In this document: positions 39,171 through 60,930 of the stretch, piece by piece | How positions within the stretch are numbered: the stretch's first letter is position 1 | Layout of the letters: each line of letters starts with the position of its first letter | NCBI RefSeq assembly: GCF_025666195.1 | Contig: NZ_CP102592.1 | Span: 682,001-746,000 of the forward strand | Origin: Xanthomonas sp. CFBP 8443 | GTDB taxonomy: Bacteria; Pseudomonadota; Gammaproteobacteria; Xanthomonadales; Xanthomonadaceae | Length of the DNA: 64,000 nt | Reading direction: 5' to 3' | Notes under the pieces: model-generated | Seen by the model: the letters and a program-made list of their open reading frames with translations, nothing else | What the model was told of the DNA's origin: nothing | Database searches by the model: none | Made by a program: the position numbers and the translations under genes

Positions 39171-39208
39171 AAGGCGGAGCGTAAAAAGTGAACCTGACCC
39201 TTATTCTC

Positions 39209-39304: not shown

Positions 39305-39442
39305 CCGGCCCATCAGACAGTAACGCTCTGCTCGTCTCCCGCCAGGCGGGAGACGGGCCGCAGCGGAAGAGAGTGCTCTTCCTCTGTGGCAGTCTCGCAT
39401 ACGCAAGGACGGCCAACACGCCCGAAATCCACGACGTGCTGC

Positions 39443-40825: not shown

Positions 40826-40872
40826 GCTGATTTCCATGGATAAAGGTTGCGAGAAATAGGGTTTGGAGCGTG

Positions 40873-40970
40873 AGTAACGGGGTCAGGATCAATTATTCGG
40901 CTGTGCTGGTTTGCGTGGCCGATAGCTGAACTGAAGACAGTGAAGCGGTGGGCACCGCCTGTCGTAAGAC
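40873..40970 (+). repeat. Third copy of the AGTAACGGGGTC dispersed repeat
   Basis: Begins AGTAACGGGGTCAG, followed by TTATTCGGCTGTG and TTTGCGTGGCCGAT, in the same order as the copies at 38935 and 39066. The downstream part is diverged. Confidence 0.6.
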
Positions 40971-40972
40971 CA

Positions 40973-44121: not shown

Positions 44122-45114
44122 ATGGACGATCATGACAAGCGCTACACGCTCACAGTTTACGTAGCGGCACCAGGCACGCCGCTTTTGCTTTCGAAAGGCA
44201 CGTCCAATGCAGGACATGTCTACTATTCCATCGACGATGGCACGGCGGCAAACAGCTATGGCTTCGCTCCGGCGAAGCATGGTGAATCCAGTGGGCCAGG
44301 GAAAGTCTTTTACAGCGATGCCAAGGACTACAAGGATCCCTATTACTCGCGCACGATGGAAATTGACAAGGCGCAGTACGAGAGGCTGAAAGAATTTGGC
44401 GCGGCTCCAGATAAGTATGGCTTTAGCATGGAATATGGCGGCGCCACGAACAGTTGCGTCGACTTCACCTGGGGAGCACTCAATCACGCCGGCTTGCATC
44501 GCAAGAGCGTCAAGGGCATCGAGGACAAGGGTTTCGAGGGCGATCTCAGGCCGCTGGAGAACGTGGACGACATCAAGAGCATTCCGGCGCCGATGCCTGG
44601 AAGCGACTTGAACAAGGAGCACCACAACCCCAAGCCTGAGCAAACATGGCTGCAGAAGGCGATCAGCGAAGCGCAGCCGCCCGGGGAGAGGACGTTTCCA
44701 AGCGAGGCCACGACGCAAGCTGCCAGCGAACGGGCACGGGATCCGTTGCACACGCAAGCGGAGTCAGCGGTATTGAAGCTGGAGCAAGGGCTTGGCCGGG
44801 ACTACGACGCCGACAGCGCCAAGCTCGCCGCGAGCGCCGCGTATCTGGCGAAAGAGAACGGCTTGTCGCGGATCGATCACGTGGTGCTCAGCGAAGACTC
44901 GCGCAAGGTCCGCGCGGGAGAGAACCTGTTCGTCGTCCAGGGCGCATTGAACGATCCCGCGCACCTGCGCGCGCACATGCCCACCGAGGACGCGCTGAGC
45001 AAGCCTGTGGAGCAATCGCTGGCGCAGCTGCAGTCGTTGAGCGAAGCGCAGCACCAGACCAAGGACATCCAGCAGCCCGATCAGGTGCAAACCAAGCCCC
45101 ATCAGATAGGCTGA
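44122..45114 (+). CDS. XVIPCD type IV secretion effector with papain-like N-terminal domain
   Basis: 330 residues. The C-terminal 100 residues are a Xanthomonas VirD4-interacting domain: QGLGRDYDADSAKLAASAAY, NGLSRIDHVVLSED, ENLFVVQGALNDPAHLRA, MPTEDALSKPVEQSLAQLQ, then a Gln-rich tail. This domain delivers toxins through the bacterial-killing X-T4SS. The N-terminal domain has His32 in SNAGHVYYSID and Cys112 in TNSCVDFTWGALNHAG, an order typical of permuted NlpC/P60-like or LRAT-like folds. It may be a peptidoglycan peptidase or amidase. Operonic with the lipoprotein upstream. The secretion apparatus itself is not in the window. Confidence 0.88.
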   Translation: MDDHDKRYTLTVYVAAPGTPLLLSKGTSNAGHVYYSIDDGTAANSYGFAPAKHGESSGPGKVFYSDAKDYKDPYYSRTMEIDKAQYERLKEFGAAPDKYGFSMEYGGATNSCVDFTWGALNHAGLHRKSVKGIEDKGFEGDLRPLENVDDIKSIPAPMPGSDLNKEHHNPKPEQTWLQKAISEAQPPGERTFPSEATTQAASERARDPLHTQAESAVLKLEQGLGRDYDADSAKLAASAAYLAKENGLSRIDHVVLSEDSRKVRAGENLFVVQGALNDPAHLRAHMPTEDALSKPVEQSLAQLQSLSEAQHQTKDIQQPDQVQTKPHQIG

Positions 45115-46599: not shown

Positions 46600-46695
46600 C
46601 TGAAGACACAGGTTCGACATTTCAATATCAGTGCGCATCGATGCATTGCACATTTGTTTGTAGGCCGAGTTTCGAGCATCGCATATGGAGTAGGT

Positions 46696-48006
46696 ATGGA
46701 GGCAAAGCGAAAGATTCCGCTTTGGGGGGTAAGGCGCTTCGCACGTCAAGTTCTGGATGACCTGGCTGCGGTGTCGAAGGATCGAGATGAAATACACGCA
46801 ACGCTTTCGCGGATCGGAGGCATCAGCCAGCTGGAGCGCGAGCGAGAGATTGAGCGTTTGAACGTAGAGATAGCCTGCGCTTCAGCAACCTGGAAGGATC
46901 AGCTTGCAGCACTGACAGCGAAGCGAGATGAGCTGCTGCTGCAGCTCGATGAGTTGCAAAAACAGGTGGTTGAAACCCGCGAACGTGCATTGTTGCAGGA
47001 GTCGGGTGTGTACGAGTACGCACATCCGTTACAGGATGCTGTCGCGTACAAGGATCGGCTTGGCCAGATCCGTGAGCTAATAAAGGAGCTAAATAAGGCA
47101 GATGGCCATGCTGTTGTCGCGGCCATCGGCTGGACGGTCAACGGCTCAGAAGCACAAGGTAGGACCATGCTGCGGGACTACTGCAAGCTGATGTTGCGGG
47201 CTTTTAACGCGGAGGCAGATGTGCTGGTACGTGGCTTGAAGCCATATGCGCTTCCGGCCGCTATAGAGCGGATCGAGAAGGTGGCAAAGACGATCCAGCG
47301 CTTGGGCAAGACAATGAGCATCCGTATCACGGATGAGTACCTGCAACTCCGTATTGCAGAACTACAGCTGACAGCGGATTTCGTGCAAAAGAAGGCGGAG
47401 GAAAAGGAGGTGGAACGGCAGGAGCGCGAGCGGCTGCGTGAAGAGCGCAAGATCCAGCAGGAGATGGAGCGCGAGCGCCTAAAGCTAGAGAAGGAGCGAC
47501 AGCACTATGTGAACGCGCTGGCGGCCCTGGTGGCAAAGGGCGACTCAGAAGCTGCGGAGAGGATGCGTAATCAGGTGTCGGAAGTGGAGCGCGCAATTGC
47601 CGACGTTGATTACCGAGTAGCAAACATCAGGGCCGGCTACGTATATGTGATCTCAAACATTGGATCTTTTGGCGAATCTCTTATCAAGGTTGGAATGACC
47701 CGCCGTTTGGATCCTATGGATCGAATCCGTGAGCTCAGTGATGCATCTGTACCCTTCAATTTCGATGTTCACGCGCTCTTCTTCTCTAAGGATGCTGTCG
47801 GAATCGAAGCGGCAATGCATGCCAAGTTGGCTAAGAACCGTGCCAATCTCGTCAATCATCGTCGCGAGTTCTTCCGTGCCACGCCGCTGGACGCCAGAGA
47901 TATGCTCGCGGACCTCGCTGGCGATCTGCTTACATTTCACGATATTCCGGATGCGCTTGAATTCAGACAGAGCCAGAAGCTGCTCAATGGGGCTATTCCA
48001 ACGTAG
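46696..48006 (+). CDS. DUF4041-like coiled-coil protein with C-terminal GIY-YIG (T5orf172) domain
   Basis: 436 residues from the ATG at 46696 after GGAG. The N-terminal half is coiled coil (QLEREREIERLNVEI, LLQLDELQKQVVETRERALL). A central block with YKDRLGQIRELIKELNKA and DYCKLMLRAFNAEADVLV resembles DUF4041, followed by a highly charged helix. The C-terminal 95 residues are a T5orf172-type GIY-YIG nuclease: GYVYVISNIGSFGESLIKVGMTRRLDP (interrupted here at 20 by convention: GYVYVISN...IKVGMTRR), DRIRELSDASVPFNFDVHA and the distal HAKLAKNRANLVNHRREFFR. Such fusions are frequent in phages and defence islands. The substrate is unknown. Confidence 0.82.
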   Translation: MEAKRKIPLWGVRRFARQVLDDLAAVSKDRDEIHATLSRIGGISQLEREREIERLNVEIACASATWKDQLAALTAKRDELLLQLDELQKQVVETRERALLQESGVYEYAHPLQDAVAYKDRLGQIRELIKELNKADGHAVVAAIGWTVNGSEAQGRTMLRDYCKLMLRAFNAEADVLVRGLKPYALPAAIERIEKVAKTIQRLGKTMSIRITDEYLQLRIAELQLTADFVQKKAEEKEVERQERERLREERKIQQEMERERLKLEKERQHYVNALAALVAKGDSEAAERMRNQVSEVERAIADVDYRVANIRAGYVYVISNIGSFGESLIKVGMTRRLDPMDRIRELSDASVPFNFDVHALFFSKDAVGIEAAMHAKLAKNRANLVNHRREFFRATPLDARDMLADLAGDLLTFHDIPDALEFRQSQKLLNGAIPT

Positions 48007-48289
48007 AAATTAAGTGAACACGTAGCGGTTCTTCCGCCCAAGTCGCTAGGGCGTCCAACTCCTCTGGCCTGGCTCACCTCCAACACCAGGAGGCGCCGGT
48101 GCCCGCTTCCAACACGCTCACGGCTGTGCCAGCACGCTCATGGCGCCGCTGCGCAGTCGATCAAATGGGTCTACGTCCACGTGGCCGATTGCCGTGCACC
48201 GGCCACTTAGAGAGTTCACGCTTCCGAGAGAACATACGCGATCAGGCGATGGCGCGGCGTCGGCCAACTTGCGGCCTCGACCGCCGTGC

Positions 48290-48940
48290 CTACGGCTCCA
48301 GCAACTGGTGCAGCAGCTTGCGGTGCGTTTCCTTCATGCGTTCCACTTCTTCCGTGGCGGCGTCGCCGAACACCAGTTTGGCGATGCCGGCGTACACGAA
48401 CGGGGTCATGGCGAAGTGGAAGTGTTCGCTGAGCGGGCTGCGCTTCATCCGGCCCGCCGCCACCTGCTCGTCGATGATGGCCTGGCGCTCCGTGCGTGCG
48501 TTGACGTTGGATTCGTTCCACTTGGCCAGCACGTCCGGGATGCGATGCCCTTCGGCGATCATCAACCGCAGGATGGCCAGGGCCTCGGGCGTGAACGAGG
48601 CATAGGTGACATCGACCAGGTTGTCGATGAAGCCGGGCACGTCGTGGGTGTCCTCGATCTGGCGCCAGTTGCCTTGGCTCCTTCCCAGCGCGGACAGCGA
48701 CCGCAGCAGGGTCTCGAAGATCTCGTCCTTGCTGGAGAAATGCACGTAGACGTTGGCCTTGGAGATGCCGACGCGCCGCGCAATCATGGCGATGCTGGTG
48801 GCGGCGAAGCCCTGCGCGCTGAACTCGACCAGCGCGGCCTCCAGGATCTGCTTGCGGCGGATCTCCGGGGAAAGCCGCGTCCTTTTCTTCTTGGTGCCAT
48901 CCGCCGTTTCAGGCGTTTTTTTCGCGTTCTTCGTCGCCAT
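48290..48940 (-). CDS. TetR family transcriptional regulator
   Basis: 216 residues from the ATG at 48940, which has GGAGG just upstream. A Lys-rich start is followed by the TetR helix-turn-helix: RRKQILEAALVEFSAQGFAA, TSIAMIARRVGISKANVYVHF and SSKDEIFETLL. The C-terminal ligand domain contains NLVDVTYASFTPEALAILRLM and resembles TetR_C proteins of the AcrR/RutR broad group. It is divergent from the MipA gene, with two palindromic GACCG/CGGTC-type operators between them, so it probably represses mipA and itself. Confidence 0.88.
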   Translation of the reverse strand: MATKNAKKTPETADGTKKKRTRLSPEIRRKQILEAALVEFSAQGFAATSIAMIARRVGISKANVYVHFSSKDEIFETLLRSLSALGRSQGNWRQIEDTHDVPGFIDNLVDVTYASFTPEALAILRLMIAEGHRIPDVLAKWNESNVNARTERQAIIDEQVAAGRMKRSPLSEHFHFAMTPFVYAGIAKLVFGDAATEEVERMKETHRKLLHQLLEP

Positions 48941-49172
48941 CGGTGCCTCCATCGTTCGGGCCGTTCCGGTCCCGCCAGGGCCAAGCCGGGCAAGTCTGCA
49001 AACGCGGCAAGCGACCTTGACCCGTCAGTGTAGCGGGTGGCGCCACGGCGGCGGCAGTGGCTGGACCGGCTGCAGCATTGGGTTGGCTTGTGCTGCGCTG
49101 ACGCGGTGCATATCGGGATGCAGCGAGCGGCGGGCGCGCAAGCTGAACGCCCAGTTACCGCAGTCCGCCATG

Positions 49173-49192
49173 TAATGACCGTTCGGTCATTA
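49173..49192. promoter_or_regulatory. TetR operator, site 1
   Basis: TAATGACCG TT CGGTCATTA is a perfect 9-bp inverted repeat with a two-base centre. The GACCG/CGGTC core is typical of TetR sites. It lies in the tetR-mipA divergent gap. Confidence 0.8.
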
Positions 49193-49208
49193 TAACGCTA
49201 GGATCTCT

Positions 49209-49226
49209 ACTGTCCGATCGGTCAGT
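49209..49226. promoter_or_regulatory. TetR operator, site 2
   Basis: ACTGTCCGATCGGTCAGT is palindromic at all but one position pair and shares the CCG/CGG core with site 1. The centres of the two sites are 35 bp apart, close to three and a half turns of DNA. Confidence 0.72.
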
Positions 49227-49344
49227 AAGGCGGTGTTCCCACCACGCGACGCGGCGGCGATCGGGCGGGAGCGGCCGCTCTGCCGCCAGGGCAACCCCAA
49301 CCGCTTGCCGGCCACCGATGGCCGGCCCTATCGAGGATTCAAAG

Positions 49345-50157
49345 ATGCGTCATGAGGAATCTCGTCGTTCGTCGCCAAACACATCGTCGCCGCGCGCGGC
49401 TCTGGGGTGGGCCGGTGTTCTTTCCATCGGACTGGCCGCTGCGCTGCCCGCCGGCGCCCAGGAGGCCGAGGTGCCGGAGGCCAAGACATCGCGCTGGGGA
49501 ATCGGGCTGGGCGCCGCGGTGATCGACCGCCCTTACCGCGACTACGACCAGGAAACGAAGGGGCTGCCGATCGTCTATTTCGAGAACCGCTGGACGGAGA
49601 TCAATGCGGGACGGTTCGACTTCAAGATCAACGACAGCGACGTGCTGAACCTCCGCGTGCGGGCGCGCTACGCCATGGACGGCTACGACCCGGAGGACTC
49701 CGATTACCTGCAAGGCATGCAGGAGCGCGACGACAGCATCTGGGCAGGCGCTGCGGTGACCTGGAACAGCCCGTTTGCCGAGATCTCCGCCGAGTACCTG
49801 GTGGACGTGATGGACAAGAGCGAAGGCGCGCGCGGACGCGTGCAGGCCGAGCGCCGCTTCGGCATGGGCCGCTTCGGCCTGACACCGCGTGTGGCCGCGG
49901 AATGGGTCGACGACAAGTACGTGGCCTATTACTACGGCGTGCGTCCCGAGGAAGCCACGCTGGCCCGCCCAGCCTATGACGGCGAGGGCACGGCCAATGT
50001 CGAGCTGGGCCTGCGGCTGGACTACAGCCCTGCCGAGCGACACACGTTCTTCGTGGACGTGGCCGGCACCCAGTTCGGTGATGGGATCAAGGACAGCCCG
50101 TTGCTCGAGCAATCGCGACAGACCCGGATCTCGGCTGGCTATCTGTTCCGGTTCTGA
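49345..50157 (+). CDS. MipA/OmpV family outer-membrane protein
   Basis: 270 residues from the ATG at 49345; an ATG at 49318 has no ribosome site. The signal peptide ends ALPAGAQ. The mature protein is a beta barrel of the MipA/OmpV type: RWGIGLGAAVIDRPYRDYDQ, GLPIVYFENRWTEINAG, AAVTWNSPFAEISAEYLVDV and a C-terminal ISAGYLFRF with terminal Phe as BAM signal. MipA was described as a scaffold for murein enzymes, and OmpV-type porins carry small molecules. Control by the divergent TetR protein suggests induction by a small compound. Confidence 0.88.
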   Translation: MRHEESRRSSPNTSSPRAALGWAGVLSIGLAAALPAGAQEAEVPEAKTSRWGIGLGAAVIDRPYRDYDQETKGLPIVYFENRWTEINAGRFDFKINDSDVLNLRVRARYAMDGYDPEDSDYLQGMQERDDSIWAGAAVTWNSPFAEISAEYLVDVMDKSEGARGRVQAERRFGMGRFGLTPRVAAEWVDDKYVAYYYGVRPEEATLARPAYDGEGTANVELGLRLDYSPAERHTFFVDVAGTQFGDGIKDSPLLEQSRQTRISAGYLFRF

Positions 50158-50248
50158 CACGGCACCGCACCGGCGGCGCACGCGACGTTGCCATGCATGG
50201 GCAGCACGCGTGCGATGCCTTCCACCACAGTTGCAGATGGAGCGATGC

Positions 50249-50431
50249 ATGTTTCCTGGATCTTCGAAGCGAAACCAGTCTTCCCCGTCGCACCAAGACA
50301 GCGGCTACTGGTTCGACTTGCCCGACATCAAACGGCGCAACGCGCGCCGGCAGAGAGGACGTTTGGTCGGGATCGGCCTGGCCGTGGCGGCGGCGCTGCT
50401 GACGTTCGTGCTGTTCGGCGACAGTGCTTGA
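50249..50431 (+). CDS. 60-residue single-span membrane protein
   Basis: From the ATG at 50249 with GGAG six bases upstream. The N-terminal 40 residues are polar and basic (GYWFDLPDIKRRNARRQRGR), then one helix (LVGIGLAVAAALLTFVLFG) ends the protein. The positive charges just before the helix place the N-terminus in the cytoplasm. It may be cotranscribed with mipA, 91 bp upstream. Family unknown; coding appearance and ribosome site support it. Confidence 0.6.
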   Translation: MFPGSSKRNQSSPSHQDSGYWFDLPDIKRRNARRQRGRLVGIGLAVAAALLTFVLFGDSA

Positions 50432-50444
50432 GAACGCTGCGGCG

Positions 50445-50999
50445 CTACCGCTGCGGCACCGCAGGCACCTCGACCTCGACCCGTACCGGTACGCCAAGCG
50501 ACTGCGTCAGCTCCGCTTCCTTCGCCTTGCCGGCAGCACTGTCTGGCGCGATCGCGATGACGATCGCGCCGCTGCGTTCGTCCACGTAGCGGGCGTGCGC
50601 CGTCGGCAGCGCCGCCGCGATCTTGGCCGTGCTGTCGGCCATGATCCGGTTCAACTCCGCGAACGAGTGGGCAGCGCCGGGTTCGAACACCACCTGCAAC
50701 GAGCCGCCTGCCACGGTGTGCGTTTCCGGTGCCACGGGCTCCATGCCGGTGAGCCGGACCACGATCCGCTTCTGCTCGCGCTCGTAGTAGAGCCCGGCCA
50801 GGCGTTCGGCGTATTGCGTGCGGATACGCTCCACGATCGGGCCGGTGGCCGCCTCCACGCGTTCGTCCGGCGCGGCTGCCGCCGGCGCCGTTGCGGCCGC
50901 GTCGGCCGGCGCGCTCGCCGGCCCTGGCGTGGTGTCGTCTGCCGTGCCGCACCCCGTTGCGCCCAAGCACATCATCAATGCAATTCCCGGAACTCGCAT
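50445..50999 (-). CDS. Lipoprotein resembling the propeptide of the adjacent protease
   Basis: 184 residues from the ATG at 50999. The signal sequence has Cys17 in GATGC, a plausible but imperfect lipobox. An Ala/Pro linker follows, then a domain alignable with the propeptide of the upstream serine protease. Shared blocks are RTQYAERLAGLYYE against RTQYADRLAGMYLE, VVRLTG in both, VVFEPGAAHSFAEL against VTFVPGATHTVAQL, YVDERSGAIVIAI against YVDERTGTIVIEV, and GVPVRVEV against GVPVRIEV. It has no protease domain. The protease gene ends 88 bp upstream. A membrane-held propeptide could act as foldase or inhibitor in trans. Confidence 0.75.
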   Translation of the reverse strand: MRVPGIALMMCLGATGCGTADDTTPGPASAPADAAATAPAAAAPDERVEAATGPIVERIRTQYAERLAGLYYEREQKRIVVRLTGMEPVAPETHTVAGGSLQVVFEPGAAHSFAELNRIMADSTAKIAAALPTAHARYVDERSGAIVIAIAPDSAAGKAKEAELTQSLGVPVRVEVEVPAVPQR

Positions 51000-51087
51000 G
51001 GCGCTTCCCACGTTGGCCAGAAGATCGGCCATATATACACCGGCCGATCTCCAGTACACGCTGCGCAGCATCATGCTGCGCTTCGCT

Positions 51088-52344
51088 CTACGGATAGAGC
51101 AGGTTGAGCCCCATGCTGTCGTAGGCCCAGTCGGTGCTGGTGTAGTAGCACGGGCTGCCGCCTGCGGTGGGTCCGGCGAAGTGGATGCCCGCGGCGAGCG
51201 TGGTGCCGGTGAACCAGGGGCCGCCGCTGTCGCCGCCGATGCAGAACAGCGAGGCGCCGGCCACGCGCACGTACACCGCATTGCAGGCGGAGGTGTTGCT
51301 GGGGCCGCAGATGCTGCCGGGGTTGGCCACGGTCGACTGCACGCTGCCGCAGTTGTAGCCGCCGTTGCGACCGTAGTGGCAGTGCACGGCGCCGGTCGTG
51401 GTTGCGGCGCGGGTGCGACGGCCGGTCGCCGCGCGCCAGGCGTCGGCGTAGAAGTAACCACCGAACGCGACGGCGGTGTTGCCCAGGCGCAGCAGGTCCG
51501 CATTCGCGTTGGCCAGCAGCGCCACCTCGTTCAGCGTGTGCGATGCGCCATCGATGCCGGAGTAGGTCTGCGCCGCGCCGGTGTCGCAATGCCCGGCCGT
51601 CAGCACGCCGTGCTGGTTGCTGGCTGCATGGTTGACCGCGAAGCCCGTGGTGCACAGTGACGAGATACTGCCGCTGCCATAGACCGCCTGCGTCACCGCG
51701 CGTGGCGAAACCTCGATGCGCACCGGTACGCCCGCGAGCTGCTCGAGCTGCCTGGTCAGTCGGGCCGTGCTGCGGGTGTCCTGGTCCACCTCGATGACGA
51801 TCGTGCCGGTGCGTTCGTCGACGTAGCCGGCATGGACGCCGGATGCCTCGTCGCGCAGGCCGGTCGCCAGCGCACGTTCCAGTCCGCTGGTCAGTTGCGC
51901 GACGGTATGCGTCGCACCGGGCACGAAGGTGACTTCGAGCGGATCGGTGCCGAAGGTGTGGAACTGGGTGCGCACCGCCTGGTCGCCGGTCAGGCGCACG
52001 ACCAGCCTGTCGACCGGAGCGTGTTCGAGGTACATGCCCGCGAGCCGATCGGCGTATTGCGTGCGCAGCGTGTCCGCCAGGCCGGCGGCGTGCTCCTGCA
52101 CGTTGATGATGCTGCGGGCGCGCGTGGGATCGACATCCAGTGCGGCCGCAATGGCGGGCAGATCGTGCTCTACCGCCTGCGCCGCTGTCAGCGCATCGCT
52201 CGGCGCCGTCTGCGGCGCCGCTGCGTTCGCGGCACCTGCCGTCACCGCTGCCATGGCCGCTGCCAGGGCCAAGCCCATGCCGTGCATCTTTATCGTCTTG
52301 GTTCCTGTTGCCGACAGCCGCGCGCTCAACCGTTCGAGGTTCAT
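51088..52344 (-). CDS. Secreted chymotrypsin-like serine protease with propeptide (alpha-lytic/streptogrisin type)
   Basis: 418 residues from the ATG at 52344 with AGGAGA upstream. A signal peptide (to about residue 42) is followed by a propeptide of about 175 residues. The protease domain has the catalytic triad His252 in LTAGHC, Asp283 in NADLLRLG and Ser373 in GGDSGGPW. Cysteines at 231/253, 322/332 and 368/399 fit the disulfides of the alpha-lytic protease family. That family is secreted, and its propeptide is required for folding. A separate propeptide-like lipoprotein lies downstream in the same operon. Such proteases help bacteria lyse other cells or feed on protein. Confidence 0.92.
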   Translation of the reverse strand: MNLERLSARLSATGTKTIKMHGMGLALAAAMAAVTAGAANAAAPQTAPSDALTAAQAVEHDLPAIAAALDVDPTRARSIINVQEHAAGLADTLRTQYADRLAGMYLEHAPVDRLVVRLTGDQAVRTQFHTFGTDPLEVTFVPGATHTVAQLTSGLERALATGLRDEASGVHAGYVDERTGTIVIEVDQDTRSTARLTRQLEQLAGVPVRIEVSPRAVTQAVYGSGSISSLCTTGFAVNHAASNQHGVLTAGHCDTGAAQTYSGIDGASHTLNEVALLANANADLLRLGNTAVAFGGYFYADAWRAATGRRTRAATTTGAVHCHYGRNGGYNCGSVQSTVANPGSICGPSNTSACNAVYVRVAGASLFCIGGDSGGPWFTGTTLAAGIHFAGPTAGGSPCYYTSTDWAYDSMGLNLLYP

Positions 52345-52659
52345 CGTCGCTCTCCTGTGGATGGAAGGCCGCGGGACGCCGCGACCAAGGCGACTGTAGG
52401 AAGCACGCATTCGGTTTTTCTGTGATGGACAGGATGGTCTGGCCAGGGCGCCGACACTTGTCTACCCCAGGTGCCAGGGCACGGAATGCACTTCACTGCG
52501 AGAAGCATTGCGTGGCGCTTCGGTTTACTTGGTTTATCTGGAGAAAATCAAAGAAAACCTAGATCTGAAATCCATATTTGCGCGCTTGAGATGTCTACAA
52601 ACTATTTTTCGAATCGGCGTAGCGTCTATCCACATCTCTCTGAAACCGGGGCGGCCTTT
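52345..52659. other. Divergent promoter region between protease and borosin operon
   Basis: Contains a clearly AT-richer patch at about 52515-52620 (for example GAGAAAATCAAAGAAAACC) ahead of the methyltransferase. This is likely the promoter and leader of the RiPP operon. No palindromic operator was obvious. Confidence 0.45.
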
Positions 52660-54012
52660 ATGTCAAGCGGCGAGCAAGGTGCTGTGCGTGAGAAACAGGG
52701 AAGGCTGGTTGTCATCGGTTCCGGAATCAAGGCCGTGTCGCATTTCACGCTGGAAGCCCAGGCGCATATCCAGCAGGCGGACATCGTGCTGTACGCCGCC
52801 GCCGATCCGGTCACCGATATGTGGATCGAGGCGCAGAACTCCAATGCCTTCGATCTTTACGAGTACTACGCCGACGACAAGGCGCGAATCATCACCTACG
52901 TGCAGATGATCGAGCGGATCATGGCCGAAGTGCGTGCGGGAAAGTATGTTTGCGCACTGTTCTACGGCCATCCCGGGGTGTTCGTGACGCCATCCCACAA
53001 CGCGATCGAGATCGCGCGCCAGGAAGGCTACGACGCGGTGATGCTGCCAGCGGTGTCGGCTGAGGATTGCCTGTACGCCGATCTCGGTGTGGACCCGAGC
53101 GTGCCGGGCATGCAGATCTACGAGGCCACCGATTTCCTGCTGCGCCGGCGCAAGATCGATACCACCGCCAACTTCGTGCTGTGGCAGGTCGGTTGCATCG
53201 GCGATCTGGGCTTCAAGTTCGGCGGCTACAAGAACGACAAGTTCGATGTGCTGCTCGATTATCTCGAAGAGATCTACGGCCCCGATCATCCGGCGATCAA
53301 TTATGTCGCCAACATGTTCGCCGGCCCGCCGCAGATCGATCGCTATGTGATCCGCGACTATCGCGATCCGGAGGTGAAGGCGAAGGTGTCCGGCATCTCC
53401 ACGTTCTTCATTCCGGCCAAGGACGCGATCCAGTCCGATCCGGACATGCTCGCCAAGCTCGGCCTGGCCAAGATCAGCGAGGCGCGGCGCACGCCGCTGA
53501 TCTGCGACCGCGACGATTATCCGGTCTTGGCCGAGATCGCCCGCCGCAACATCCACAACCACAAGGTGCCTGCTGGCTACAAGTACAGCTTCGCCTCCGA
53601 GCCGCTATACCAGACGCTGCTCACGCTTGCACTGGACCAGCGCGCCCAGGGCGAGTTCCGCACCAACCCCAAGGCCTACCTCGACGCCCGCGCTGGCCTG
53701 ACCGCCGACGAGCGGCGTTCGCTGCTGCTGCAACACACCGGCGTGACCCGGATGATGTTCAAGCGCGATCCGGACAAGGAGGCGGTGCGCTTCGTTGGCG
53801 CCGCGCTGCTCGATCCGGCGTTGGCACGCGGCTATCGCGACCGGCAGGTCGCGGTCGCGCAGGCCGTCGCCGACCGCGAGATCGCCATCGGGGAATACGA
53901 AGGCCTGGTCGCGTCCTGGCTGCGGCAGCGCGGCTACGCCGCCACGCCCTCCGCGGTAACCCGCGCCATGGCCGAGGTCCACACCAGCAAAGACAGCTTG
54001 ATAGAAGCCTGA
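52660..54012 (+). CDS. Borosin-type peptide backbone alpha-N-methyltransferase
   Basis: 450 residues from the ATG at 52660; an ATG at 52591 is possible, and neither has a strong ribosome site. It aligns along its length with fungal OphMA: VVIGSGIKAVSHFTLEA, FYGHPGVFVTPSH, VSAEDCLYADLGVDPSVPG and GISTFFIPAKDA. The catalytic tyrosines and arginine of OphMA (Y63, Y66, R72, Y76) fall at Y67, Y70, R76 and Y80 here, in LYEYYADDKARIITY. A clasp-like region follows (residues 316-367, LLTLALDQRAQGEFRTNP, LTADERRSLLL). A further 80-residue extension comes next, with no hydrophobic core peptide at the C-terminus. It should methylate backbone amides of a separate substrate using S-adenosylmethionine. Confidence 0.9.
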   Translation: MSSGEQGAVREKQGRLVVIGSGIKAVSHFTLEAQAHIQQADIVLYAAADPVTDMWIEAQNSNAFDLYEYYADDKARIITYVQMIERIMAEVRAGKYVCALFYGHPGVFVTPSHNAIEIARQEGYDAVMLPAVSAEDCLYADLGVDPSVPGMQIYEATDFLLRRRKIDTTANFVLWQVGCIGDLGFKFGGYKNDKFDVLLDYLEEIYGPDHPAINYVANMFAGPPQIDRYVIRDYRDPEVKAKVSGISTFFIPAKDAIQSDPDMLAKLGLAKISEARRTPLICDRDDYPVLAEIARRNIHNHKVPAGYKYSFASEPLYQTLLTLALDQRAQGEFRTNPKAYLDARAGLTADERRSLLLQHTGVTRMMFKRDPDKEAVRFVGAALLDPALARGYRDRQVAVAQAVADREIAIGEYEGLVASWLRQRGYAATPSAVTRAMAEVHTSKDSLIEA

Positions 54013-54055
54013 TCTTCCGCCGCTCCTTCCATCTGCAGGACAAGAGGACACGACA

Positions 54056-54970
54056 ATGGCGACCTTCGATCCGTCCGGAACCTACATGACCAGCTGGCTG
54101 CAACCGGACGGGAAAACCTATATTCCCGGCCCGGTGGTGATCGATGCCAGCAGCCAGTCGATCACGCTCAATGGCGCGGCGATCAACTCCCCGGCGTTCA
54201 CCGCGACTGGAGTGAGCTGGTCCGCGTCGAGCAACAACGCGACCTCGGCGCAGCTGACGTTCTACCAGAATGCCGGCGTCAACGGCTTCGTCGGCCTGTT
54301 CGCGCAGGGCAGCGATCCGCTGCCGGCGGCCAACAATCTATTCGGCAATGCCGGCACCGCGACCCAGCAACTGTCGACGTGGAACGGCACCTACAACCTG
54401 TTCAGTCTGACCAGCGACGGCAAGAGCACGGAGCTCAGCGACAAGCTGGTGATCAATGCGCCCGAGGTCACCTATGCCGGATCGGTCGTCAACAAGCCGG
54501 TCTATACCGGCGAAAAGGGGCCGAACGGCGAGATCGACCAACTCGCATGGTTCAGCCAGAACGGCAATCCGCAGAACGCGATCATCCAGTTCTCCAATTC
54601 GCAGGCGCCGACGCTGACGCTTTACGGGGAGATGTGGAACAGCGGAGCGCAGCCCACCTACGTGAACCTCTCGGGGACCACCAAGTCGACGACCAGTCCG
54701 CCGAACATCACCGTGATCGCCGCGATGATCAGCAACACGTCGACCGAAGTGACCACCGAGGTGACGACGGAAGTCACCACGGAGGTGACCACCGAGGTCA
54801 CGACCGAAGTGACCACCGAAGTCATGACCGAGGTCGCGGTCGCGGTGGTCGAAGTGCTGGCGGAGGAAGACGACAATCCGTCGCTCGGGTCGGCGAAGGC
54901 GTCGCGTCCCAAGGACGATACGGTGGCGGCGGAAAACCTGCTCACCAAGGCGCTGGCGCTTGCGGGCTAG
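54056..54970 (+). CDS. Candidate borosin substrate protein with TEVT repeats
   Basis: 304 residues, 43 bp after the methyltransferase, with GAGG upstream. The first 215 residues are beta-rich and look like two related halves (TYIPGPVVIDASSQSITLNG, SDKLVINAPEVTYAGSVVNK; LTFYQNAGVNGFVGLFAQG, LAWFSQNGNPQNAIIQFSN). Then come a hydrophobic NITVIAAMIS, eight four-residue repeats (six TEVT, then TEVM and TEVA; residues 230-261), VAVVEVLAEEDD, and a tail ending ENLLTKALALAG. There is no signal peptide. Position, repeats and lack of an enzymatic motif suggest it is the peptide substrate of the methyltransferase; this is inference. The family is unknown to me. Confidence 0.65.
   Translation: MATFDPSGTYMTSWLQPDGKTYIPGPVVIDASSQSITLNGAAINSPAFTATGVSWSASSNNATSAQLTFYQNAGVNGFVGLFAQGSDPLPAANNLFGNAGTATQQLSTWNGTYNLFSLTSDGKSTELSDKLVINAPEVTYAGSVVNKPVYTGEKGPNGEIDQLAWFSQNGNPQNAIIQFSNSQAPTLTLYGEMWNSGAQPTYVNLSGTTKSTTSPPNITVIAAMISNTSTEVTTEVTTEVTTEVTTEVTTEVTTEVMTEVAVAVVEVLAEEDDNPSLGSAKASRPKDDTVAAENLLTKALALAG
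54743..54838 (+). repeat. Eight 12-bp coding repeats (TEVT units)
   Basis: In-frame units of ACC/ACG-GAA/GAG-GTG/GTC-ACC/ACG. The protein repeat is nearly exact while synonymous codons vary among units, which suggests selection on the peptide and not a recent slippage. Confidence 0.9.
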
Positions 54971-55015
54971 GCCGCGGCGCCGGTTCGGTGCGGTCGACGA
55001 AGGGTAGGGCCCGTC

Positions 55016-55657
55016 ATGGCATCCATCGCATCCCCCGTCCGGTTTTGCAGCCCGGCGACGGTCGACGTGGCAGGGCGTGCCCTGCCGCTGTCGTCGGTCT
55101 TCGCCTACGACACCGCACGCTGGGACCTGCGCGCGATCGTCGCCGACTTCTTCGGCACCGACGCGCTCGAGACGCTGCATCTGGATCCGCGCTGGAACCC
55201 TCGGGATGCGGACCTCGCGCTGCCGCACCACTTCGTCACCCGCAACAGCTGGGACGTCAGCAAGGCCTTGCGTGAGGCGGTGACCGAGCGCTCGATGGCG
55301 CTTATCCACTCGCTGGTCTTCGACCACATCGCCGGATTCGTCGGTCCGATCCGCAGCCTGCAGCCGGAGGCGATGATGCGCGTCAACTTCCATGGCTCGC
55401 GGGCGATCCTGCGCTTCCATCGCGACGAGGAGTACGGGCAGCGGCCGAATCTGGTCAACATCTGGTTGCCGGTGACCCGGACCCACGGCAGCAATTCGAT
55501 GTACGTGGAGTCCGCACCGGGCCTGAGCGACTTCAAGCCGGTCGAACTCGAGTACGGCGAAGGCTTCATGTTCTACGGCACGGAAATGGTGCACGGCACG
55601 CTGGACAATCTGAGCGGCGGCACCAGGATCTCCTACGACTTCCGTTTTTCGCTGTAG
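55016..55657 (+). CDS. Fe(II)/2-oxoglutarate-dependent oxygenase, candidate tailoring enzyme
   Basis: 213 residues, 45 bp after the candidate substrate gene. The double-stranded beta-helix facial triad is visible: His135 and Asp137 in RFHRDEEYG, His193 in EMVHGTLDN. Arg204 and Ser206 in GGTRISYDFRF are placed to bind 2-oxoglutarate. Other strands are VNIWLPVTRTHG and FMFYGTE. Such enzymes hydroxylate or desaturate unactivated carbons, often in natural-product pathways. In this operon it could hydroxylate Val or Thr residues of the repeat peptide. It is the last gene of the apparent operon. Confidence 0.8.
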   Translation: MASIASPVRFCSPATVDVAGRALPLSSVFAYDTARWDLRAIVADFFGTDALETLHLDPRWNPRDADLALPHHFVTRNSWDVSKALREAVTERSMALIHSLVFDHIAGFVGPIRSLQPEAMMRVNFHGSRAILRFHRDEEYGQRPNLVNIWLPVTRTHGSNSMYVESAPGLSDFKPVELEYGEGFMFYGTEMVHGTLDNLSGGTRISYDFRFSL

Positions 55658-55848
55658 CTACCGACGGTCCGGATCAAGCCATCGCGCCGGCATCGCAGCG
55701 CGAATGCCGTACAGGATCATTGGGGATTTGCAGGCCTTCCCGAGCGGCGGACGCTTCGGACCCTGAGCGCGGTCGAGGAACCGGGCGCCTGGCCGATAAC
55801 GCGTCCATCGGCATCGCGCTATCGCGCTTCGATGCTTCCCGCTCGACC

Positions 55849-56274
55849 ATGGAGGTCCTGTTTGAACCTGTTCCCTCGCGAGTTTTGCTGGCTGATGCTG
55901 TCGTCCTGCCGTTCTGCGCGGCTGCGGAAGGAGGCGCCGCCGATGGTCTGGTCGCCGCGCCTGCCCGCCTGCGTACGTTCGGCCAAAATGGCGTGGGCCT
56001 CACCCGGTACACCAACGCGATGTGCGAGGACCAGTACGACGAGGAAATCGAGGCGCCCGGTTCGCTCGGCAATGCGTTCCGTTCGATGGTCGGCGAGATT
56101 CCCGGCACCTCGCTCGGCATGCCCGAGAGCGGCAGCATACGCACGATCAACGAGGGCAAGGTGAGCATGGCCAAGCCGTACTACCACGAATATGCGTTGG
56201 TGGCGGGCCAGCCGGTCATGGTGCAGGCCGATATCCAGTCGGCCGCGAATATCAGATGCAGCGGAACACCATAG
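55849..56274 (+). CDS. Hypothetical protein, N-terminus uncertain
   Basis: The C-terminal part looks like a real protein: RLRTFGQNGVGLTRYTNAMC, SLGNAFRSMVGEIPGTSLGM and KPYYHEYALVAGQPVMVQAD. It resembles small secreted or lipoprotein-type Xanthomonas proteins with a cysteine near the C-terminus (IRCSGTP). The start is unclear. An alternative frame just upstream (from a TTG at 55861) reads NLFPREFCWLMLSSC, which looks like a lipoprotein signal. A frameshift between signal and mature part is therefore possible, and the gene may be broken. The ATG at 55849 is the best in-frame start but has no ribosome site. Confidence 0.4.
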   Translation: MEVLFEPVPSRVLLADAVVLPFCAAAEGGAADGLVAAPARLRTFGQNGVGLTRYTNAMCEDQYDEEIEAPGSLGNAFRSMVGEIPGTSLGMPESGSIRTINEGKVSMAKPYYHEYALVAGQPVMVQADIQSAANIRCSGTP

Positions 56275-56351
56275 CCGTGCGCTGGCGGCTGACGTCTTGT
56301 CCATGATCGGAGCCGGTTCAGCTCTGCAGGCGAGGTGATTGACGACGCTGC

Positions 56352-57845
56352 TCAACCCGCTTCCTGAGCTCGCAAGTGGCCGATCAGCAGCGCATGCAGC
56401 ACTGGCGGCATTGGCAGGTCGCGCTGGCCTTCGTCCCATTGCTGCAGGAACGGAGCCAGATGGTCGCGGTGCCAAGGGCTGAGGCGCTCGCGCGCGGCCT
56501 GGCGTGTCCGCAGGCGCTCGACGATCGCCGTGGCACCGGCCTCGTCGCCATGCTGCAGGTGATGGAAGACGAAGGCCAGCAACAGGCTGTCGGGGCTGTC
56601 GAACAGCACGTCCGGTGGCACCATGCCGTCGTCATCGCCTTCTTCCAGCAGGTGCAGCAGGCTATCGGCGCTGCGGGCGAAAAACGGCTCTGGGAACTGC
56701 TGGTCGATCAAGCCGAAGTAGTTCGCATCCACTGCGGGCAGCGCGGCAATCAGGCGCTCGATGGCGGCGCACAGCTGGGTATCGCTCTTGGAGGCATCCA
56801 GCGCCCAGCCGCCGAAATCGCCGATGTCCGCGCTCTGCTGCACCTCCTCGGCAAAGAATCCTGCGGCGATCGCGTAGAAATGCAGGTCGTGCAATTGCGG
56901 GGTGGCCTGGCGCCGTTGCCATGCCAGCAGTCGCGCGTGCTGCACGCCCACCTGGACCATCAGCATGCCCCGACCCATTTCATGGGTGGCCCAGAGGAAC
57001 TGGCGGCTGCCGTCGCGCTCGCGGATCCAGCACCATTGACGGTCCCTGCCGGCGTGCACCGGCGACCAGCCTGCGGCCTGCAGCGCGGCGCCGAGATTCT
57101 GCTCGACCAGCGCGGGAATCAGTTCACGCACCCTGGCCTGCTGGATCAACGCCTTGTCGCGCGCGGCCAGCAGGAGGGACGATTTGCGTTTGGGTTCCAG
57201 GAAGAAGCGCAGGCCGAAGCTGCGTTCGACCTCGTCGTGCTCGCTCTCCGTCAGCCGGGGCAGCGCCAGGTCCTCCGGAACGCCACGCCGGCGCTTGAGC
57301 CCACGGCGCGCTGCCAACGCACGGATCGCCTGGAAGTCGTCCGACGCGAGCAAGCCGTCGAGCGTGGGCGCCATGCCATCCTCGGCGGTGAATGTCTCGT
57401 CCAGCCAGCCGTTCACCAGCAGCGCATACCAGTCGCTGAACAGTTCGGTCTCGTTAGCCTGGTCGGCGAGCGTGAGTACGCTGCGCAGCAACGTTGGCAA
57501 CGGCAGGGCGTGGTTGGCATCGGCCTGCCGATAGAGCACGCGCGCCTGGCCTTCCCATTCGAGATAGCCCGCATCATCATCGCGCCCGAGCCAGCCCGGC
57601 TCAGTCGCAGCCAGCGCCTCGGCCCGCAGTCCGGCATCGGCGATGGCCTCCACTGGCGTACGCACCAGCACCCCGTGGCGCAGCAACACATCGGGCAACC
57701 GGAACCAGGTCAGGCTGGTGTCGTAGCGCGCTTGCAGATGTAACAGCCCGTGGATCAGCGAGGATTGGCGTGGGCCGTCCAGTGCGCTGCGGTCGACCAG
57801 ATGGATCGTGCTCTCGATCAGGTCCTCGATGGCGTGCTGCGACAT
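56352..57845 (-). CDS. Uncharacterised cytoplasmic protein
   Basis: 497 residues from the ATG at 57845 with AGAAGGA seven bases upstream. No signal peptide or membrane span. The sequence is helical and acidic, with features such as RQSSLIHGLLHLQARYDTSL, a basic middle (ALAARRGLKRRRGVP), GLRFFLEPKRKSSLLLAARD, and a C-terminal part with ADSLLHLLEEGDDDGMVPPD. No family is recognised. It is followed on the same strand by nothing close, and the next minus-strand gene upstream (DcrB-LRR-DUF1963) is 341 bp away. Confidence 0.7.
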   Translation of the reverse strand: MSQHAIEDLIESTIHLVDRSALDGPRQSSLIHGLLHLQARYDTSLTWFRLPDVLLRHGVLVRTPVEAIADAGLRAEALAATEPGWLGRDDDAGYLEWEGQARVLYRQADANHALPLPTLLRSVLTLADQANETELFSDWYALLVNGWLDETFTAEDGMAPTLDGLLASDDFQAIRALAARRGLKRRRGVPEDLALPRLTESEHDEVERSFGLRFFLEPKRKSSLLLAARDKALIQQARVRELIPALVEQNLGAALQAAGWSPVHAGRDRQWCWIRERDGSRQFLWATHEMGRGMLMVQVGVQHARLLAWQRRQATPQLHDLHFYAIAAGFFAEEVQQSADIGDFGGWALDASKSDTQLCAAIERLIAALPAVDANYFGLIDQQFPEPFFARSADSLLHLLEEGDDDGMVPPDVLFDSPDSLLLAFVFHHLQHGDEAGATAIVERLRTRQAARERLSPWHRDHLAPFLQQWDEGQRDLPMPPVLHALLIGHLRAQEAG

Positions 57846-58186
57846 CGTGCGTCCTTCTGCGTCCGTGGCGTCAAGTGGAGCTTAGCCGTCTGTCCTTTGC
57901 AGGGGCATGAACGCGCGCAACGGCTGTCGCGGCGTGGATAAAGGGACTTCCTAAAGCAGCGTCGAATGCGGGCGAGACACGTCGCCGCCAGGTCGCTAGC
58001 GCAGCGGCTGTATTGCTTGCGTGCGCACAAGTGACGCCGCGGCCCATGTACGCGTTGCCGATCCATCATGGCGAGCGTTCTCTCGGGAAGAGGGGCAGCA
58101 CCATGCGCGAAGTGGGAGGCGCGATGATGGAAGCGGGAAGCAGGCAGCAGGACGCCTGCTCAGATACCCGTTCTCAGGTCGAGCGC
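57846..58186. other. Intergenic stretch with no recognised gene
   Basis: 341 bp between two minus-strand genes. It should contain the promoter of the 497-residue protein near 57860-57950. No terminator with a T-tract or operator was evident. Confidence 0.4.
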
Positions 58187-60667
58187 CTAGCTGCTCTCCA
58201 ACCCGCAGTACACGTTGGAGAAATCACGCTTGGCGAGGTCGCTCTTGTGGATCACGAAATACAGCTCGCCTGCGTCCCAGAAGCAGAAGCCGGGGTTCGC
58301 ATCCGATGCGACGCGCAGCAGCACCATGAAATCCTCCGGGCGACCGTGCAGGCGGTTGGCGGCTTCGCTGAGCGGGGTGTCGTGTTGCTTGAACACGTGG
58401 CTGTTCACGCCGTGCACTGGGGAGACGACAGACTGCGCCGCAAGCCGATCGCGCAGCGATTCGACGAGCTCATACGCTTCCTCCAGGGCATCCAGGCCCT
58501 CGGCCGCGCCTTGGTAATACTCCTCGTCGGAATAGAAATGCGGCACGCTGATCCAGTGGGCGGCGCTGGCGCGGTAGGGAAGGGTGCCGTCGTCCTGGTC
58601 GTCGAGCAACGCTGCATCGCTCGCCAGGTCCGCAGCGGCCTGCAGCGCCGCGCGCGGACCGGCGTAATGGAAGACCTGCGGCGTGAGGTCTTCCTGGTCC
58701 GAGATGAAGAAATACAGCACGCCGTCCCGCGGCAGGTAGGTCTGTAGCGGGGCCAGCTGCGTGCAGTCCAGTTGCGCGATGAACTGCATGGGGCGGATCG
58801 TGCCGTCGAAGGCAGTGACCCGGGGGTAGGACATGTCCGGTGGCAGGTCGGGCAGTCCGCCAAAGCGCGTGTTGCCGCGCATCCGGTAGTCGTCCGCCTC
58901 GTCCGTGGCCAGCGCGATTGCGCGCCACGCCAGCGCCTGCATCCCGGACCGGTAGGGCGCCCACTGCGCGTCGCTTGCCAGCGCCTGCTCCAGTTGCTGG
59001 GCCAAACCCGGGTCGTTGCGCACGTAGTAGGCATCATCGTCGAAGGCGACCGTACCTTGACCGCCGGCGCCCTTGTAGCGGTAGTCCAGCAAGGCGTGCT
59101 TCTTCGGCAGTTCCAGTTCCAACCGTTCGATGCGCTCCAGTCCGGCGGGCAGCGCGGTCAACGGGTTGTTGGTGAGGTCCAGCCGTTGCAGCGCCGGCGA
59201 GGCCGCGACGCTGGCGGGCACGGTCTGCAACTGGTTGCCTGCGAGCGACAGGGTCTTGAGCGTGGCGGGGAACGATGCGTCGGGCAGCTGCTCGATGGCG
59301 TTGTCGTCCAGCACGCAATACATCAGTGGCAGCGATAGCAGTTCCGGCGGCACGGTGCGAATGCCGGTGCGGGTGACGTGCAGGCGCCGCAGTGCGCGCA
59401 GCGCCCCGAGCGCGGCGGGCAGACGCTCGAGGGCCTTGGCCCTGACGATGCTCAGGTCCTCCAGGGCGGAGAAGCGGGCGATCGCGTCCGGCAATTCCTG
59501 CAATCCGTTGGCGCCGGCGGCTTCGTCGTCGTAGTAGATGCTCAGCGAACGCAGCGACGTATAGGCGTACAACGCCTCCGGTAGCGTGGGGCCGGCCAGA
59601 TTGGATAGATGCGCGTGGCGCGGCAGGCCAGGCGGTGCGCTCGACAGCTCGTCCATCGAGGTGAAGCGGTAATTCGACCAGTCCAGGGTCTCCGTCGCCA
59701 GCTTGCGCGCGATGCGCACGGGATAGCGATGGCCGGCGCCGTACGCCTGCAGGTAGCCGCTGAAGCCGACCCAGCCCTGCTCCAGCACCAACTCTCCCCA
59801 GAGCTTGAGGTCGAAGCGCAGGCCGCCCGACCAGAGATAGGCCTGGTGGGCCGGCTCGCGATCGTCCTCGAAGCGGATACGGCCGGTCGGCACGCCCGCG
59901 CGGTGGACGCCCTTCACCGAGAAACGGAAATAGACCTTGGTATCGTCCACCAGATGTGCTCGGGCGGCCGCGTCCGCCTTGCGTGCACGCGCTTGCAGGT
60001 CGATGACCAGTTCGTCGCCACTGCTGCCCGTATTGCCGATGCTCGCCCCGGTCTCGCGCCGAAAGTCGAACGCCAGGTCGTCGATCCGAAAGACGTCGCG
60101 GCCGTCCTCGGGAATGCGGAACGGCTCCGCCGGCGCGGTCACGGGCGCGGGATGTCCATCGTCGTCGTCGCCGTCCTCGTCGTCCTGGCCGCCGAACATG
60201 TTCTGCATCCAGGCGTCGTGTGCCGCCAGCGCGGCGGCGGCGTCGCCGGTCACGCGCAGGCTGCGCAGCGCGGCGTCGAGCACTGGAACATGCTCGGCCT
60301 CGGTGCCGGCCGGACAGTCGCCCACAATGTCCAGGTACAACGCATCGTCCAAAAGCACCATGACGAACAGATACACATAGTCGTCGCCCTGCGCGGTCAC
60401 CTGGAATGCAGGACGGCCGTCGATCGTCAGTGCCTGCTCGGCCAACACCGCGACTTCGCCGCGTCGTGTCCGGCACTCGGCACGAAAGCCTTCCCAGGGA
60501 TCGGCGCCGGCATCGTGCGGGGTCTCGCGTCGCACGATGACGACGCCCAGCGAAACTTCATCATCGGCGACGGGGTACGCCGCTTTGACGAACTGGCCTA
60601 CCTGCCGCACGACGGTGAAGCGGTCGGGCAGGTCGATGGAGAGGGCATCGGTCTGAACGCGGCGCAT
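58187..60667 (-). CDS. DcrB-like / leucine-rich repeat / DUF1963 fusion protein
   Basis: 826 residues from the ATG at 60667; a GTG at 60754 would add 29 residues. Residues 1-140 resemble the DcrB/DUF1795 fold (LSIDLPDRFTVVRQVGQFVK, DGRPAFQVTAQGDDYVYLFV). An acidic linker (QDDEDGDDDDG) and a beta-rich domain follow. From about 370 to 520 are leucine-rich repeats (LPDAIARFSALEDLSIV, LPAALGALRALRRLHVT, LTALPAGLERIERLEL). The last 270 residues look like DUF1963/YwqG (GNTRFGGLPDLPPDMSYP, MQFIAQLDC, GVLYFFISDQ, NPGFCFWDAGELYFVI). No signal peptide, so probably cytoplasmic. DcrB and DUF1963 domains often occur near secretion or polymorphic-toxin loci, so an immunity or adaptor role is conceivable. 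Confidence 0.72.
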   Translation of the reverse strand: MRRVQTDALSIDLPDRFTVVRQVGQFVKAAYPVADDEVSLGVVIVRRETPHDAGADPWEGFRAECRTRRGEVAVLAEQALTIDGRPAFQVTAQGDDYVYLFVMVLLDDALYLDIVGDCPAGTEAEHVPVLDAALRSLRVTGDAAAALAAHDAWMQNMFGGQDDEDGDDDDGHPAPVTAPAEPFRIPEDGRDVFRIDDLAFDFRRETGASIGNTGSSGDELVIDLQARARKADAAARAHLVDDTKVYFRFSVKGVHRAGVPTGRIRFEDDREPAHQAYLWSGGLRFDLKLWGELVLEQGWVGFSGYLQAYGAGHRYPVRIARKLATETLDWSNYRFTSMDELSSAPPGLPRHAHLSNLAGPTLPEALYAYTSLRSLSIYYDDEAAGANGLQELPDAIARFSALEDLSIVRAKALERLPAALGALRALRRLHVTRTGIRTVPPELLSLPLMYCVLDDNAIEQLPDASFPATLKTLSLAGNQLQTVPASVAASPALQRLDLTNNPLTALPAGLERIERLELELPKKHALLDYRYKGAGGQGTVAFDDDAYYVRNDPGLAQQLEQALASDAQWAPYRSGMQALAWRAIALATDEADDYRMRGNTRFGGLPDLPPDMSYPRVTAFDGTIRPMQFIAQLDCTQLAPLQTYLPRDGVLYFFISDQEDLTPQVFHYAGPRAALQAAADLASDAALLDDQDDGTLPYRASAAHWISVPHFYSDEEYYQGAAEGLDALEEAYELVESLRDRLAAQSVVSPVHGVNSHVFKQHDTPLSEAANRLHGRPEDFMVLLRVASDANPGFCFWDAGELYFVIHKSDLAKRDFSNVYCGLESS

Positions 60668-60930
60668 GGGCGTGGCATCGGCAGCGGTTGAGTGGCCGCA
60701 GCTTACCTTGGTGTTTTTACGGTTGTCATGCGTGGGGAGGCGTGTTGATCCCACACGCGAGCCGGCATGGAAGCGCCTACGTCGTGCGATATCCAGGACG
60801 TTTCCGATGATGCAAAGCGCCCCGTCATAGGACTTGGCGGCACATGGAGGTACGATTGGAGAGAGGCAGCACGCGCGCTTCGGTCTATTGGCGAACGTGC
60901 TTGGCAGCTTGGGTAGAGAGAGGCAATCGA

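Follow-up and report, generated by a model that had tools for sequence, protein, structure and literature searches.

A probable split borosin cassette with a partner oxygenase gene in Xanthomonas sp. CFBP 8443

Introduction

Backbone N-methylation confers protease resistance and membrane permeability on peptides. In the fused borosins (types I–III), the core lies at the C terminus of the methyltransferase itself, as in the fungal OphMA, dbOphMA and MroMA (omphalotin), whereas in the type IV split system SonM–SonA of Shewanella methyltransferase and precursor are encoded by separate genes and the binding domain is borne by the precursor SonA (PMC8429565). Borosin types 0–XI are in print, and the joining of methyltransferase and borosin-binding domain (BBD) with a separate core is one of the four classes described (PMC11395268). 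Here we present an analysis of three adjoining genes in a 64,000-nucleotide stretch of the genome of Xanthomonas sp. CFBP 8443 (contig NZ_CP102592.1, positions 682,001 to 746,000; the whole stretch is hereafter referred to as the window). The genes encode a borosin-type methyltransferase (MT), a large putative precursor with a (T/S)TEV repeat core and an Fe(II)/2-oxoglutarate-type oxygenase (Table 1). Judged from sequence comparison, the trio very probably constitutes a horizontally spread three-gene split borosin cassette, in which the MT methylates the repeat tail of a separate protein and the oxygenase probably oxidises the same tail.

The window MT resembles OphMA, dbOphMA and MroMA in its fold, its catalytic Tyr/Arg set and its clasp/BBD region. 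By contrast, the separate core protein, an extra helical segment, a Glu-containing repeat core and the neighbouring oxygenase set the window system apart from them. MT and precursor have separate genes, as in SonM–SonA, but the binding domain appears to be on the MT and not, as described for SonA (PMC8429565), on the precursor, and the window precursor is far larger than SonA and has no match in the PDB up to E 1. The type III fused borosin KchMA is likewise bacterial, with a long C-terminal core and the key residues Y70, Y73, R79 and Y83, but is a single polypeptide, whereas MT and core protein are separate here (KchMA is compared by its description only; PMC11395268). KchMA methylates its own core with up to 11 modifications, mainly at the preferred A, V and L but also at some D, and in type III cores acidic residues are described as alternating with others (PMC11395268). 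RceM, AinM, PruM and PmoM are type V, VII and VIII methyltransferases placed near bacterial type III (PMC11395268, 2024); the split borosins of types VII and VIII (AinM, PruM and PmoM), which adjoin bacterial type III, are also compared by description only.

Neither the type IV arrangement, with the BBD on the precursor, nor that of the fused types I–III, with the core at the C terminus of the MT, was found in the window: the clasp/BBD region is on the MT, and the MT is without a repeat core. MT and core-bearing precursor are instead on separate linked genes, as in split borosins, if the TTEV tail is taken as the core. Because the clasp/BBD region sits on the MT, this layout is consistent with the class 2 split architecture described in print. 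The split arrangement proposed in the original prediction, which had been made from the sequence alone, therefore stands, but it is less unusual than was proposed, as a split class that joins MT and BBD has been published before (PMC11395268). With reservations, we regard the system as a variant of the known split-borosin kind; it would be a mere new member if type VII proved identical.

Organization of the locus

The three genes are consecutive on the forward strand, with gaps of 43 and 45 bp as predicted, and their GC content of 63–65% is close to that of the window (66%). The predicted MT start at 52591 had to be abandoned. Both trio-bearing congeners keep the ATG at 52660, whereas the equivalent of the ATG at 52591 leads to a stop or another frame in them; we therefore place the start at 52660, which gives an MT of 450 residues and agrees with the residue numbers used in the original prediction. 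Two numberings of the MT are used below, that of the 450-residue protein and that of a 473-residue reading from 52591.

Table 1 Features of the cassette in window coordinates
Feature	Position	Strand	Details
Cassette, ~3.77 kb	52501..56273		Absent from a congener with collinear flanks
Borosin-type backbone N-methyltransferase (MT)	52660..54012	+	450 residues; start corrected from 52591
Clasp/BBD-like helices of MT	53518..53754	+	MT residues 287–365; profile match and helices in model
Extra helical segment of MT	53770..53970	+	MT residues 371–437; beyond the OphMA-matched region; precedes the beta part in fused homologues
Putative precursor (substrate) protein	54056..54970	+	304 residues
Two related beta repeats of precursor, perhaps barrels	54056..54700	+	Residues about 1–104 and 105–215; homology to C-terminal parts of fused MTs; AlphaFold2
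Putative core of precursor	54740..54871	+	Residues 229–272; STEV, six TTEV, MTEV, then AVAVVEVLAEED
Predicted C-terminal helix of precursor	54908..54964	+	Residues 285–303; low-confidence AlphaFold2 secondary structure
Fe(II)/2-oxoglutarate-type oxygenase	55016..55657	+	213 residues; H135, D137, H193, R204

The methyltransferase

The MT carries the PF00590 tetrapyrrole-methylase fold (Pfam, E 8.8e-17), and its nearest solved relatives are dbOphMA/OphMA (best E 1.3e-86), then MroMA, then bacterial SonM (2.3e-44). An alignment with the catalytic domain of OphMA had been predicted; the dbOphMA/OphMA match is wider than this, spanning residues 29–395 of the 473-residue reading, that is, catalytic domain and clasp. 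The SonM match is limited to the catalytic domain (residues 37–293 of the same reading), and searches with the MT and with a profile of its C-terminal part gave no match to SonA itself. A profile of MT residues 285–450 matches the clasp of MroMA/OphMA (OphMA chain 301–378; E 1e-4 to 3e-4), and a structure model of the MT has helices in both the clasp/BBD-like region and the extra segment.

The four key residues predicted to be collinear with those of OphMA, Y67, Y70, R76 and Y80 (450-residue numbering), are invariant across a 33-row MT alignment. They correspond by alignment to Y63, Y66, R72 and Y76 of OphA, in which the mutants R72A and Y76F remained unmethylated when overexpressed (PMC6108569). 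Homology to OphMA and SonM, together with this Tyr/Arg set, identifies the MT as a borosin-type methyltransferase. The further expectation that it carries no core at its own C terminus is borne out: a TTEV-like repeat was found neither on the window MT nor on the 120 MT homologues listed, fusions included, the single match among 122 proteins being the precursor P0001.

Fused homologues of the methyltransferase–precursor pair

Among the independent lines of evidence that make the second protein the partner of the MT, fused homologues are the strongest. We searched a profile of the precursor N-terminal part (8 sequences) against 129 other proteins and 20 shuffles of each of 132 proteins, for which the best shuffled match was 2.4. 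The profile matched four fused MTs with two repeats (P0080, 4e-49; P0083, 1e-33; P0082, 2e-27; P0095, 5e-11) and 11 with one repeat (E 9.5e-10 to 4.7e-6), and a further match (E 1e-6) links precursor residues 107–212 to the first repeat of P0083. Residue 437 of P0083 marks both the end of the MT match and the start of the precursor match; in P0080, the sequence of which starts inside the MT, the two matches cover residues 8–316 and 325–532. P0082 and P0083 run on into an A/T/S/V-rich tail and then a final charged stretch, the same order as in the window's MT–precursor pair.

A quick tree of 75 MTs (70 of the 132 proteins and 5 window or locus rows; some branches are long) places the window MT in a clade of 56 (99% support in the Shimodaira–Hasegawa-like approximate likelihood ratio test, SH-aLRT) that holds 44 MTs judged by length to be stand-alone, 11 one-repeat fusions and 1 two-repeat fusion. 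P0082 and P0083 adjoin this clade (95%). The fusions suggest that the second protein is probably the substrate of the MT, and the beta part of the precursor is likely to be its docking or leader part.

Two further proteins may contain related beta repeats. A borosin MT frame of more than 900 residues (L031 / L005, in genome G026) has a C-terminal half that by eye resembles several such repeats. P0002 (210 residues) joins a precursor-like beta repeat to a PF00196 domain, a LuxR-type helix-turn-helix, and is either a real fusion or an assembly error.

The precursor and its repeat core

The second gene had been described as a repeat protein without enzyme motifs, and its 304-residue product indeed has no match in Pfam or NCBIfam up to E 0.1. 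No export signal is apparent by eye at its N terminus. AlphaFold2 (AF2) models the N-terminal part as all-beta, with a predicted local distance difference test score (pLDDT) of 65–87 at residues about 21–100 only. Residues 229–260 read STEV-(TTEV)6-MTEV, and each of the five trio precursors measured has 7–8 (T/S)TEV units; a variable linker separates the core from the predicted C-terminal helix. Neighbouring units differ at 1–4 of 12 bases, where a non-synonymous difference is possible at the first S/T position alone since the units were located by their amino acids, and the repeat is therefore not fresh DNA slippage.

The repeat core evolves more slowly at the protein level than the rest of the precursor. 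Against Burkholderia, the proportion of differing non-synonymous sites (pN) is 0 over the 45 codons of the core, at a pS of 0.44 (44% of synonymous sites differ), compared with a pN of 0.081 in the beta part and 0.167 in the tail; a register slip, possible when aligning within repeats, somewhat favours identity in this and the other core comparisons. The core is also slowest and the tail fastest against Sphingomonas (core/beta/tail, 0.094/0.209/0.416) and against Microcystis (0.129/0.292/0.563; synonymous sites saturated). In the comparison with the congener G525, the slowest part is again the core (0.010), but the tail, at 0.040, does not outpace the beta part (0.046). We take these comparisons to reflect strong selection on the core at the protein level.

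The oxygenase

The third gene has the HxD...H...R motif of the predicted Fe(II)/2-oxoglutarate oxygenase. Both the iron site and the 2-oxoglutarate Arg are present, with H135, D137, H193 and R204 invariant in 9 rows that include distant StrG-like proteins. Family scores are lower than the curated thresholds: PhyH (PF05721) scores 20.9 bits, just below the 22-bit Pfam cut-off, and TIGR04324 39.5 bits (E 4.4e-10) against the 150 required. Of the three proteins, the oxygenase shows the lowest conservation against Sphingomonas (62.4% identity; MT, 75.1%) and Microcystis (51.6%; MT, 67.2%), but not against Burkholderia.

A StrG-like oxygenase also lies directly behind a distant borosin MT in three plasmid records (L023–L025), from Azospirillum lipoferum 4B and from two megaplasmids of Mycetohabitans (M. 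endofungorum), which recalls the pairing in the window. Their MTs have 738–798 residues and are ~40% identical to the window MT. Unlike in the window, VD/TD/ID repeats are found upstream of the MT: two large proteins precede it in these records, and in L023 (1121–4810) and L024 (1052–4849), where both were translated, one of each pair (P0129 and P0131) has long acidic repeats of this kind, whereas P0130 and P0132 are without them. A profile search found no match to the beta part in these four proteins. The records suggest that an oxygenase with a large acidic-repeat protein is a recurrent theme of borosin loci. Pythonamide (EreM/EreI) likewise combines backbone N-methylation and an oxygenase on one ribosomally synthesised peptide core, but is described with an FkbM-family methyltransferase, a proteusin leader and an oxygenase of another family (PMC9259500, PMC11285071); only on methylated cores was its oxygenase seen to give the +16 Da product (PMC9259500).

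Distribution and mobility of the cassette

The original prediction had been staked beforehand on co-occurrence of the three genes in related genomes. The full trio, in identical order, is present in all six other loci with an MT at least 66% identical (tblastn of all three proteins): the congeners G525 and G662, Burkholderia arboris LMG 24066 and MEC_B345 (99% identical to each other), Sphingomonas sp. ATCC 31555 and a metagenome-assembled genome of Microcystis aeruginosa. Within the genus, presence is all-or-none, each trio gene occurring in the same 3 of 20 genomes, the window's own included. Matches are few in the wider samples: the MT is found at E ≤1e-30 in 15 of 398 genomes of the phylum (the window's own and others that are 37–43% identical) and at E ≤1e-90 in 3 of 345 of the family, the three trio-bearing congeneric ones, and the precursor profile matches 1 of 369 of the class, the window's own. 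The close family is thus rare and scattered.

The trio-less congener G503 is collinear with the window over 48288–52500 (91%) and 56274–60500 (89%), with 94 bp between the matches. This empty site delimits a discrete cassette of ~3.8 kb, and serine-protease-like genes upstream fall outside it. The trio DNA is 83% identical to that of B. arboris over 2975 bp. The distribution is read most simply as the result of transfer between bacteria, with a cyanobacterium among the donors or recipients. Behind the oxygenase, still within the cassette, a 184-codon open reading frame (55720–56274, + strand) has a sub-threshold match to a Mu-transposase C-terminal domain (E 0.046) and is possibly a mobile-element remnant, or the match is a chance one.

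Proposed mechanism and alternative explanations

In the scheme that we infer for docking, methylation and its sites, the substrate and reaction of the oxygenase, the order of steps, release, export and function, the MT, which brings its own clasp/binding region, is the probable docking partner for the beta part of the separate precursor. The disordered (T/S)TEV tail would thread through the MT active site as in the mechanism that has been examined in OphA and SonM, and methyl groups derived from S-adenosylmethionine would be added to backbone amides. The recurring Val, perhaps also Thr, is the most likely site, since KchMA prefers A, V and L (PMC11395268). The oxygenase would then probably oxidise the methylated tail. 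The predicted combination of a split borosin, a large separate substrate and an oxygenase partner draws support from the order of the trio, its all-or-none presence, the fusions, the selection on the core and the empty site.

Several observations weigh against this scheme. The AF2 model of the precursor is poor (pLDDT 54). Every repeat contains Glu, which is unusual for a borosin core; AboMA is described as modifying uncharged residues only, and KchMA also some acidic ones (PMC11395268). Fewer units and shorter repeat tracts are found in P0001 and P0123, the metagenomic relatives of the precursor, and nothing in the cassette was recognised as a protease or transporter. Among the MT homologues, P0097 and P0090 match the precursor N-part profile weakly (5.5e-4 and 2.9e-3), and the long MTs P0100, P0112 and P0124–P0126 match it no better than shuffles do. 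A TTEV-like tail is absent from the fused MTs among the 120 homologues listed, the tails of P0082 and P0083 being A/T/S/V-rich instead. Finally, 21 distant MT loci gave no precursor match and three oxygenase matches, an absence that is weakly tested because the flanks available for 16 of the 21 amount to no more than about 1.5 kb.

The PF00590 fold, together with weak NCBIfam matches to siroheme and cobalamin enzymes far below their cut-offs, could in principle mark the MT as an ordinary tetrapyrrole methylase with unrelated neighbours, but the sequence evidence is strongly contrary and leaves this reading virtually no chance. It is improbable, although less so, that the repeat protein is a partner or regulator and that the core lies elsewhere, for example in the C-terminal tail of the MT. 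Several MT homologues do share a short, similar C-terminal motif, for example ADLVAA (by eye), and the fusions are without a TTEV tail; however, the tail of the window MT is short and non-repetitive, no part of the second protein is better conserved than the repeat core in the codon comparisons, and a low-complexity tail occupies the equivalent place in the fused P0082 and P0083. Somewhat less remote, but still distinctly unlikely, is that the MT methylates the repeat protein while the oxygenase has another target or does not depend on the methylated tail. Its lower conservation against Sphingomonas and Microcystis and its sub-threshold family matches fit such independence, whereas its all-or-none presence with the other two genes in 20 congeners and the StrG-like genes behind distant borosin MTs in the three plasmid records argue for a shared task.

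That the system belongs to the published type VII split borosins (AinM and others) and is new in its host only comes close to an even call. AinM and others are placed near bacterial type III (PMC11395268), and Allosphingosinicella MTs are close relatives of the window MT (P0014, 81%); the species A. indica exists, and 'Ain' may derive from it, a point resting on the initials only. It is conceivable, although we think it rather unlikely, that the final product is not a small released peptide but the protein in its entirety, in which a beta-barrel-like carrier stays joined to its densely N-methylated, oxidised (T/S)TEV tail. We raise this because no protease or transporter was recognised, no export signal was apparent and 7–8 units are kept while the rest drifts, although the shorter tracts of P0001 and P0123 run counter to a kept unit number. 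If true, the cassette would be a mobile protein-tail-modification system crossing phyla and not a classical natural-product pathway.

For a split borosin cassette as preferred here, the window MT would be a trans-acting enzyme with its own binding domain, and such separate enzymes should lend themselves more readily to use than fused ones. Since fused and split versions of the same MT–beta pair occur naturally, the docking logic is testable. A short, regular four-residue core under strong selection would provide a clean substrate on which to find out where methylation occurs, and its partner oxygenase makes available an untried pairing of N-methylation and oxidation.

Genomic surroundings

On the right side of the cassette, 58187–60754 (− strand) encodes an 855-residue protein with leucine-rich repeats and DUF1963. 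A homologue lies ~2 kb behind the trio in G525, and the right flank of the cassette therefore differs between congeners. A few kilobases from the cassette, 46654–48006 (+ strand) encodes a 450-residue protein with a PADLOC PD-Lambda-1 match (E 3e-112) and DUF4041/T5orf172 domains, a candidate anti-phage defence gene by these matches. The protein encoded at 44122–45114 (+ strand) has a C-terminal X-Tfes XVIPCD domain (E 4e-26). Such domains mark type IV secretion effectors of Xanthomonadales, and its presence fits the Xanthomonas-like host that had been predicted from the sequence. Four open reading frames at 36323–42031 (− strand), for which no Pfam or PADLOC match was found up to E 0.001, have a third-position GC of 0.47–0.53, compared with 0.92 and 0.85 in the bordering frames, and probably represent a foreign island.

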